Part shown: piece after piece, positions 1,717-2,189 of the stretch
How positions within the stretch are numbered: position 1 is the first letter of the stretch
Layout of the letters: each line of letters begins with the position of its first letter
Assembly (NCBI GenBank): GCA_001817345.1
Contig: MHIE01000005.1
Span: 1-43,523 of the forward strand
Direction: 5' to 3'
DNA: 43,523 nt
Source of the DNA: Candidatus Buchananbacteria bacterium RIFCSPHIGHO2_01_FULL_44_11
GTDB taxonomy: Bacteria; Patescibacteriota; Patescibacteriia; Buchananbacterales; UBA6539
Made by a program: the position numbers and the translations under genes
Notes under the pieces: model-generated
What the model saw: only the letters and a program-made list of their open reading frames with translations
What the model was told of the DNA's origin: nothing
Databases searched by the model: none

Positions 1717-1745
1717 TTGATTTATTAATGATTTTTTGGTAGACT
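1717..1745 (+). promoter_or_regulatory. sigma70-type promoter of the tRNA-Cys locus
   Basis: TTGATT (1717-1722), 17-nt spacer, TAGACT (1740-1745). Confidence 0.6.
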
Positions 1746-1778
1746 GAAACAGTTCTTTGATTTCTTGGCCTGGTTTGA

Positions 1779-1808
1779 GGCCACGTAGCCAAGTGGTAAG
1801 GCGGAGGC
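1779..1808 (+). tRNA. 5' half of a split/interrupted tRNA-Cys (copy A)
   Basis: GGCCACG-TA-GCCAAGTGGTAAGGC-G-GAGG; acceptor strand complementary to CGTGGCC at 2120-2126. Confidence 0.55.
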
Positions 1809-1996
1809 CCCGCACCAAGCCCGAACTTGTCTGGTTGTTAGTTAAACATTAATTCTCGGAAGACGCCTGCGGCTTACTCCCCGATAATATAGTTAAAACA
1901 CTTTTGGCTTGGTGCGGGGTAAATCTGTCCCGACTCATATATTTTTTAAAATTAAGGAAGTCGAGGATCCTCGATTCAAAACTTCTGGAGATACTT

Positions 1997-2071
1997 GGCC
2001 TGGTAGCCAAGTAGTAAGGCAGAGGTCTGCAAAACCTTTATTCGCGGGTGCAATTCCCGCCCAGGCCTCCA
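1997..2071 (+). tRNA. tRNA-Cys(GCA), contiguous copy B, CCA encoded
   Basis: Cloverleaf: GGCCTGG/CCAGGCC acceptor, GCC/GGC D stem, CTGCAAA anticodon loop, GCGGG/CCCGC T stem, TCCA end; unusual D-loop A18 and T-loop G55. Confidence 0.8.
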
Positions 2072-2089
2072 GAAGTTTTGAATCGGGAC

Positions 2090-2130
2090 AAAACCTTTAT
2101 TCGGCGGTTCGATTCCGCCCGTGGCCTCCA
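2090..2130 (+). tRNA. 3' half of the interrupted tRNA-Cys (copy A)
   Basis: AAAACCTTTATTC-GGCGG-TTCGATT-CCGCC-CGTGGCC-T-CCA; canonical T-loop. Confidence 0.55.
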
Positions 2131-2148
2131 AAATTTTAACCTCGGGAC

Positions 2149-2189
2149 AAAACCTTTATCCGCGGGTGCAATTCCCGCCCAGGCCTCCA
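2149..2189 (+). repeat. additional tRNA-Cys 3' half (copy B')
   Basis: AAAACCTTTATCCGCGGGTGCAATTCCCGCCCAGGCCTCCA; T arm and acceptor strand identical to copy B. Confidence 0.8.

Follow-up and report, generated by a model that had tools for sequence, protein, structure and literature searches.

The tRNA-Cys locus of Candidatus Buchananbacteria bacterium RIFCSPHIGHO2_01_FULL_44_11 contains one intact tRNA-Cys gene that is enclosed in the anticodon loop of a second, split tRNA-Cys gene and is followed by a third tRNA-Cys 3' half. The locus occupies positions 1779-2189 of the window, the 43,523-nucleotide stretch that represents contig 5 of a 943-kb genome assembly (30 contigs, 78% complete). Genome-wide scans were run on the whole genome rebuilt from its stretches. 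The initial annotation had described a tRNA nested in an anticodon-loop insertion of a tRNA of the same identity, and this arrangement is borne out, with the halves, the stem, the repeat and the inner tRNA all found. The following features are arranged along the locus.

1717-1745, forward strand: putative native promoter of the tRNA-Cys locus (TTGATT-17 nt-TAGACT), which by eye resembles the stretch 5' of tRNA-Cys in the relatives G003-G006
1767-1774, forward strand: GGCCTGGT, which may derive from the 5' end of an earlier, outermost tRNA-Cys (layer C); short and tentative
1779-1807, forward strand: 5' half of the outer tRNA-Cys (A), up to the anticodon stem; E 3e-4 genome-wide against the inner tRNA
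1808-1923, forward strand: separate palindromic repeat in the outer anticodon stem, with 14-bp arms (CCCCGCACCAAGCC/GGCTTGGTGCGGGG) and dispersed copies (L003 and L005)
1924-1927, forward strand: TCTG, which continues the outer anticodon loop as far as the TG^CA insertion point, read directly
1928-2088, forward strand: tRNA-bearing double-hairpin element of 161 bp (TCCCGAC...TCGGGA); its left 50 bp are 87% identical to the tRNA-Thr element
1928-1967, forward strand: hairpin 1 of this element (TCCCGAC-AT-rich loop-GTCGAGGA), ORF-less, assigned from the fold and from comparison with L137, L166 and L167
1968-2088, forward strand: hairpin 2 (TCCTCGATTCAAAACTTCTGGAG ... CTCCAGAAGTTTTGAATCGGGA), a 19-bp perfect inverted repeat that encloses the inner tRNA
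1997-2071, forward strand: inner intact tRNA-Cys(GCA) (B), identified by ARAGORN, Rfam (64.5 bits) and the genome-wide scans
2089-2130, forward strand: 3' half of the outer tRNA-Cys (A), 42/42 identical to the tRNA-Cys 3' half of G004
2142-2147, forward strand: TCGGGA, the right terminus of an older element, next to the third 3' half (direct reading)
2148-2189, forward strand: third tRNA-Cys 3' half (layer C), B-type and 41/42 (98%) identical to the inner tRNA, a relic of an earlier round

Both outer halves match the inner tRNA genome-wide (E 2e-6 for the 3' half), and the rejoined outer gene is called as tRNA-Cys(GCA) by ARAGORN, as the initial pairing of these halves had proposed. The interior of the nest, first described as a single long insertion in the loop, is composed of two independent insertions (1808-1923 and 1928-2088), the second of which is the tRNA-bearing unit. 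Removal of both restores GAGG-TCTG-CAAAACC exactly and yields a canonical tRNA-Cys. The 14-bp stem noted earlier is present but belongs to the separate, dispersed palindrome rather than to the tRNA-bearing unit, and the inverted repeat around the inner tRNA, initially put at about 18 bp, measures 19 bp (arms 1972-1990 and 2067-2085). The tRNA-bearing unit folds into two adjacent hairpins with conserved ends (TCC..GGA TCC..GGA), and the region as a whole folds far more stably than its shuffles (z -6.1). The promoter assigned to 1717-1745 was not called by a consensus scan, but the stretch is conserved, by eye, 5' of tRNA-Cys in four relatives.

Two features on the periphery of the nest, the third 3' half (2148-2189) and the short 5' relic GGCCTGGT, had been missed. 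The letters of GGCCTGGT (1767-1774) match the start of the inner tRNA B, and in the predicted fold they pair with CCAGGCC of the third 3' half. The junction at the third 3' half, TCGGGA/CAAAACC, is the same as that at 2083-2089. A search for another intact tRNA-Cys, which had been proposed as a check, returned none in the genome beyond the inner copy at 1997-2071. In this inner tRNA, A18 and G55 replace the usual G18/U55 pair. The same combination recurs in G005 (L101) and in L200 and suggests covariation of these positions in some Patescibacteria tRNA-Cys. Further downstream, a large inverted repeat with 14-bp arms (ATCCCGTTAGAGGC) lies at 2353-2500 of the window, just before and into the start of infB.

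Empty sites were sought in six relatives of the same family (G001-G006). Five of the six (G001 and G003-G006) contain one intact, plain tRNA-Cys directly before infB and thus represent empty sites; G001 additionally carries a degenerate tRNA-Cys relic upstream of the intact gene. In G002, the search matched the palindromic repeat only and tRNA-Cys was not recovered, which provides no evidence either way. The tRNA-Cys genes of the family fall into two alleles, A (GGCCACG, in G003 and G004) and B (GGCCTGG, in G005 and G006), which differ by paired changes in the acceptor and T stems with all pairs kept within each allele. The outer copy, whose 5' half carries the A-type acceptor GGCCACG of G003 and G004, is allele A, and the B type is found in the inner copy and in the third 3' half. 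Because the stems differ by compensated changes and the 3' half of A is that of G004, outer A and inner B were both working, distinct alleles and not a gene with its decayed duplicate. Trees of infB and of the upstream gene, built to tell which allele is native, contained no well-supported fork.

The nested arrangement is not unique within the genome, since other tRNA loci are organized in the same way. The left 50 bp of the element are common to the tRNA-Cys and tRNA-Thr(TGT) loci (E 7e-11). At the latter, an intact tRNA-Thr resides inside hairpin 2 and the unit is flanked by the halves of an outer tRNA-Thr. The tRNA-Ala locus is a stacked nest of several layers. For Thr(GGT), Gln, Glu, Ile, Val, Arg, Leu and Trp, either partial copies or double hairpins inside relic D-, anticodon- or T-loops are observed, and the hairpin that interrupts the Tyr locus is spelled differently from the TCCCGA element. 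Rejoining the outer Ala of the middle layer, the outer Ala of L137 or the Thr(GGT) relics gave no tRNA call. A tRNA-SeC with a 1.5-kb intron, reported by ARAGORN, was an artefact of the intron mode and was left out.

Double-hairpin copies without autonomy of their own are also dispersed at unrelated sites, in intergenic palindromes and protein genes. The palindromic repeat at 1808-1923 has copies elsewhere in this genome (L003 and L005), and its arms resemble the hairpins around GIY-YIG ORFs (ACCCCG...). At L003 (1450-1700, contig 6), a CCCCGCACCAA palindrome copy stands between the two copies of the duplicated 5' start of a response-regulator-like gene, in which AATCATTGAAGACGA is repeated. 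On three contigs (C19:38460, C24:6849 and C3:132389 of the same genome), GIY-YIG ORFs lie within palindrome arms that contain TGTCATTGCGAGGA / GACGAAGCAATCT, and ORF-less copies of these palindromes may be non-autonomous forms of the GIY-YIG-bearing ones. A further GIY-YIG ORF on contig 3 (L041, 248-965), with the arms ACCCCGCCC.../...GGGCGGGGT, is located in a stem-loop inside a gene identified as RNase P RNA (Rfam RF00010, E 6e-38).

A GTDB-wide pattern search with the left hairpin and the central palindrome retrieved 27 stretches, most of them from Patescibacteria, among which are short tRNA-less copies at many sites. Two stretches (L111 and L130) carry a GIY-YIG ORF inside hairpin 2. L122, from Spechtbacteria, is a tRNA-Glu nest whose rejoined outer gene is called Glu, and L121, from a Bacteroidetes MAG, displays a tRNA-Pro/GIY-YIG arrangement. 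Searches for relatives of the GIY-YIG ORFs brought up full composites in three other families (L137, L166 and L167). In each, hairpin 1 contains a GIY-YIG ORF, hairpin 2 contains an intact tRNA-Ala, and the insertion point is TTTG^CA in the anticodon loop of an outer tRNA-Ala. Their order is an outer 5' half ending in TTTG, a TCCCGA arm, the GIY-YIG ORF and its closing arm, then an arm, the tRNA-Ala and an arm ending in TCGGGA, and finally the outer 3' half starting with CA. The ORFs of L137 and of the Tyr and Glu loci of the present genome were assigned to GIY-YIG by Pfam (PF01541). The 161-bp Cys unit lacks a GIY-YIG ORF, and the best interpretation is that it represents the GIY-YIG composite without its ORF, with hairpin 1 emptied.

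L166 and L167 were obtained with a pattern of GIY-YIG start codons in TCCCGA hairpins, which was too strict and gave three hits in 381 genomes. A pattern that combined an outer 5' half with TCCCGA yielded few true cases in 144 genomes of the class, and the other inspected matches were due to chance. The TCCCGA-type anticodon nest is therefore sporadic, a point against the mobile-element reading given below. Other sites of the element family were also noted. In Azambacteria (L124), a double hairpin at TTTG^CAAATGG adjoins a second copy of the 3' end of an rpmG-like gene, which resembles a displaced gene end. In Giovannonibacteria (L114, L120 and L130), the element stands between the two copies of the duplicated 5' start of a zinc-ribbon gene. 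In a Deltaproteobacteria MAG (L127), a tRNA-Met fragment that adjoins an intact tRNA-Met has a double hairpin in its D-loop, which reflects either spread past Patescibacteria or mis-binning.

The association of tRNAs, inverted repeats and GIY-YIG ORFs was quantified in the present genome. A perfect flanking inverted repeat of at least 10 nt is found at 8 of the 29 tRNAs, compared with 0.3% of random places; among GIY-YIG ORFs the figure is 8/15, compared with 5% of small ORFs (both by binomial test). Four of 16 GIY-YIG ORFs lie less than 400 bp from a tRNA, where 0.34 would be expected. In samples from the order, class and phylum, 42 of 61 GIY-YIG ORFs have an intact tRNA no more than 400 bp away, and 27 of the 61 stand between an intact tRNA and a partial copy of the same tRNA, rates that are biased by a query taken from tRNA-associated nucleases. 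Only four tRNAs of the genome (Cys, Tyr, Ala and Thr-TGT) have an anticodon loop with TGYA, and they are the four that are interrupted there, a rule that was noticed post hoc and that includes a Tyr case with a different hairpin sequence.

The nest probably records the repeated invasion of a single tRNA-Cys gene by a small mobile element that carries a tRNA of the same identity. This reading draws on features legible in the DNA itself: the unit structure, the precise site, the same-identity cargo, the empty sites, the repeated layers and the existence of GIY-YIG-bearing versions. We give about an even chance to the broader proposal of a home-and-rescue class, in which one hairpin holds a nuclease gene, the other holds a whole functional copy of the disrupted gene, and re-invasion of the rescue copy generates Russian-doll tRNA genes. 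In the mechanism proposed for the Cys nest, the GIY-YIG protein would cut TG^YA-type sites in tRNA genes, and the composite would be copied into the resulting break. The resident tRNA would die and the cell would survive through the cargo tRNA as its replacement. A cargo tRNA that retains the target motif could be invaded again, so that layers would accumulate with the working copy innermost, and the Cys copy would have lost its nuclease gene. Mobility driven by GIY-YIG is an inference from sequence comparison, and the Cys element would be linked to GIY-YIG by its anatomy and by the three composites at tRNA-Ala. Recurrence of the structure at further loci and in other genomes makes misassembly, which had been named as a possible refutation, very unlikely.

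Local duplication is the main competing explanation. In this scenario, a hairpin or GIY-YIG element inserts into a tRNA gene, repair of the break copies a portion of the resident tRNA together with its flank, and the tRNA is not cargo. A long target duplication would keep one copy intact, and the nests would require two events, one on the 5' side and one on the 3' side. Partial copies that duplicate an intact tRNA together with shared flank are indeed observed at Tyr (37 nt), at Ser (3' end and downstream flank) and at Asn (L136), and one-sided duplications of 5' or 3' ends occur at protein genes too (L003, L124, L114 and L120). Identity of the inner tRNA with the outer pieces in L137, L167 and Tyr weighs against cargo and fits duplication at insertion as well, and the cargo reading leaves the source of a right-identity tRNA in the element unexplained. 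However, at Cys, at Thr(TGT) and in L166 the outer and inner copies represent distinct functional alleles whose acceptor stems carry compensated changes, an outcome that duplication in place and later decay would not produce, and hairpin 2 surrounds the tRNA symmetrically. Local duplication fits Tyr, Ser, Asn (L136) and possibly L137 and L167, but not Cys, Thr or L166, and as a general explanation it is unlikely, if well ahead of the remaining alternatives.

RNA splicing of the nest, by which the insertion would be removed from the outer precursor RNA and both tRNAs would be used, is very unlikely. The position in the anticodon loop, the nearly intact outer tRNA and the pairing of the ends, which extends the anticodon stem in the predicted fold, would suit an intron, an option that the initial annotation had raised. 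Nevertheless, no Rfam group I/II covariance match was obtained in 1700-2250 even at E 5, and an additional 116-bp palindrome sits in the outer anticodon stem. Elements of this kind are also found in D- and T-loops as well as in palindromes and protein genes, and other outer tRNAs are truncated, mismatched or re-interrupted. Moreover, the intact inner copy makes splicing needless.

A tyrosine-integrase element that used the tRNA 3' half as attB and left duplicated 3' halves behind is rejected as scarcely plausible. The anticodon loop is a frequent target of tRNA-integrating tyrosine integrases, and the three 3' halves stand in register (2030, 2089 and 2148) with a 59-bp spacing. Against this, the 161-bp unit contains no integrase and is too short for one, the outer 5' halves are still present, the ends TCCCGA/TCGGGA have no att core repeat, and the full-length relatives (L137, L166 and L167) carry GIY-YIG instead. 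The Cys unit shares with such elements a tRNA gene target and displaced 3' halves but differs from them in carrying a complete tRNA. Least credible of all is a decaying tandem tRNA-Cys array without mobile elements, another option first offered for the several tRNA-Cys pieces lying together, which is contradicted by the single intact copy in five searched relatives, the exact insert boundaries and the recurrence of the same hairpin element and composite anatomy at other tRNAs and in other genomes.

The invading-element reading finds partial parallels in known systems. The Cys unit is like the double-hairpin elements of fungal and algal mitochondrial DNA (Allomyces), short mobile-looking units of two adjacent GC-rich hairpins, in its two-hairpin form, a likeness drawn by description and not by sequence; we know of no GIY-YIG or tRNA cargo in the hairpins of those elements. 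Fungal mitochondrial GIY-YIG elements reportedly take the place of a gene's end, and the resident end is displaced (Paquin, Lang). They are comparable in that a carried piece of the gene offsets insertion into an essential gene and a displaced relic is left behind, but they concern protein genes and supply the gene end only, whereas here a whole tRNA is held in a hairpin. The small GIY-YIG enzyme SegB of T-even phages is free-standing, cuts within tRNA genes and drives tRNA duplication, and its reported motif RAWTSGAAC is the reverse complement of the T-loop-like GTTCSAWTY (PMC2988022, PMC13096335). As in the Patescibacteria loci, one small GIY-YIG protein adjoins tRNA genes; however, SegB is phage-encoded and located between tRNAs, with no double hairpin and no tRNA cargo in a broken tRNA. 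Insertions in CPR rRNA genes, mostly at the tops or bases of stem-loops, include GIY-YIG-coding and short (<200 bp) ORF-less types that are not group I/II introns (PMC11270868). Compared by description, they match the present elements in phylum and in both types but differ in their rRNA target, and no nested replacement gene has been reported for them (PMC11270868). The supposition that a tRNA nested in its own target had not been described held in the open-access literature, where no description was found of nested tRNAs, of an element of this type with a tRNA as cargo or of GIY-YIG/tRNA elements in CPR.

Essential single-copy genes are normally closed to mobile elements unless the insertion is spliced out or the gene end is restored. 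The elements described here seem to insert into the most conserved loop of an essential tRNA and to survive because they supply the gene in full. If true, this would account for the fragmented surroundings of tRNA genes and the abundance of GIY-YIG genes in these small-genome bacteria, and core tRNA genes would be horizontally replaceable. The system would also constitute a natural counterpart to cleave-and-rescue designs, testable with an 84-residue protein and a 75-bp target.
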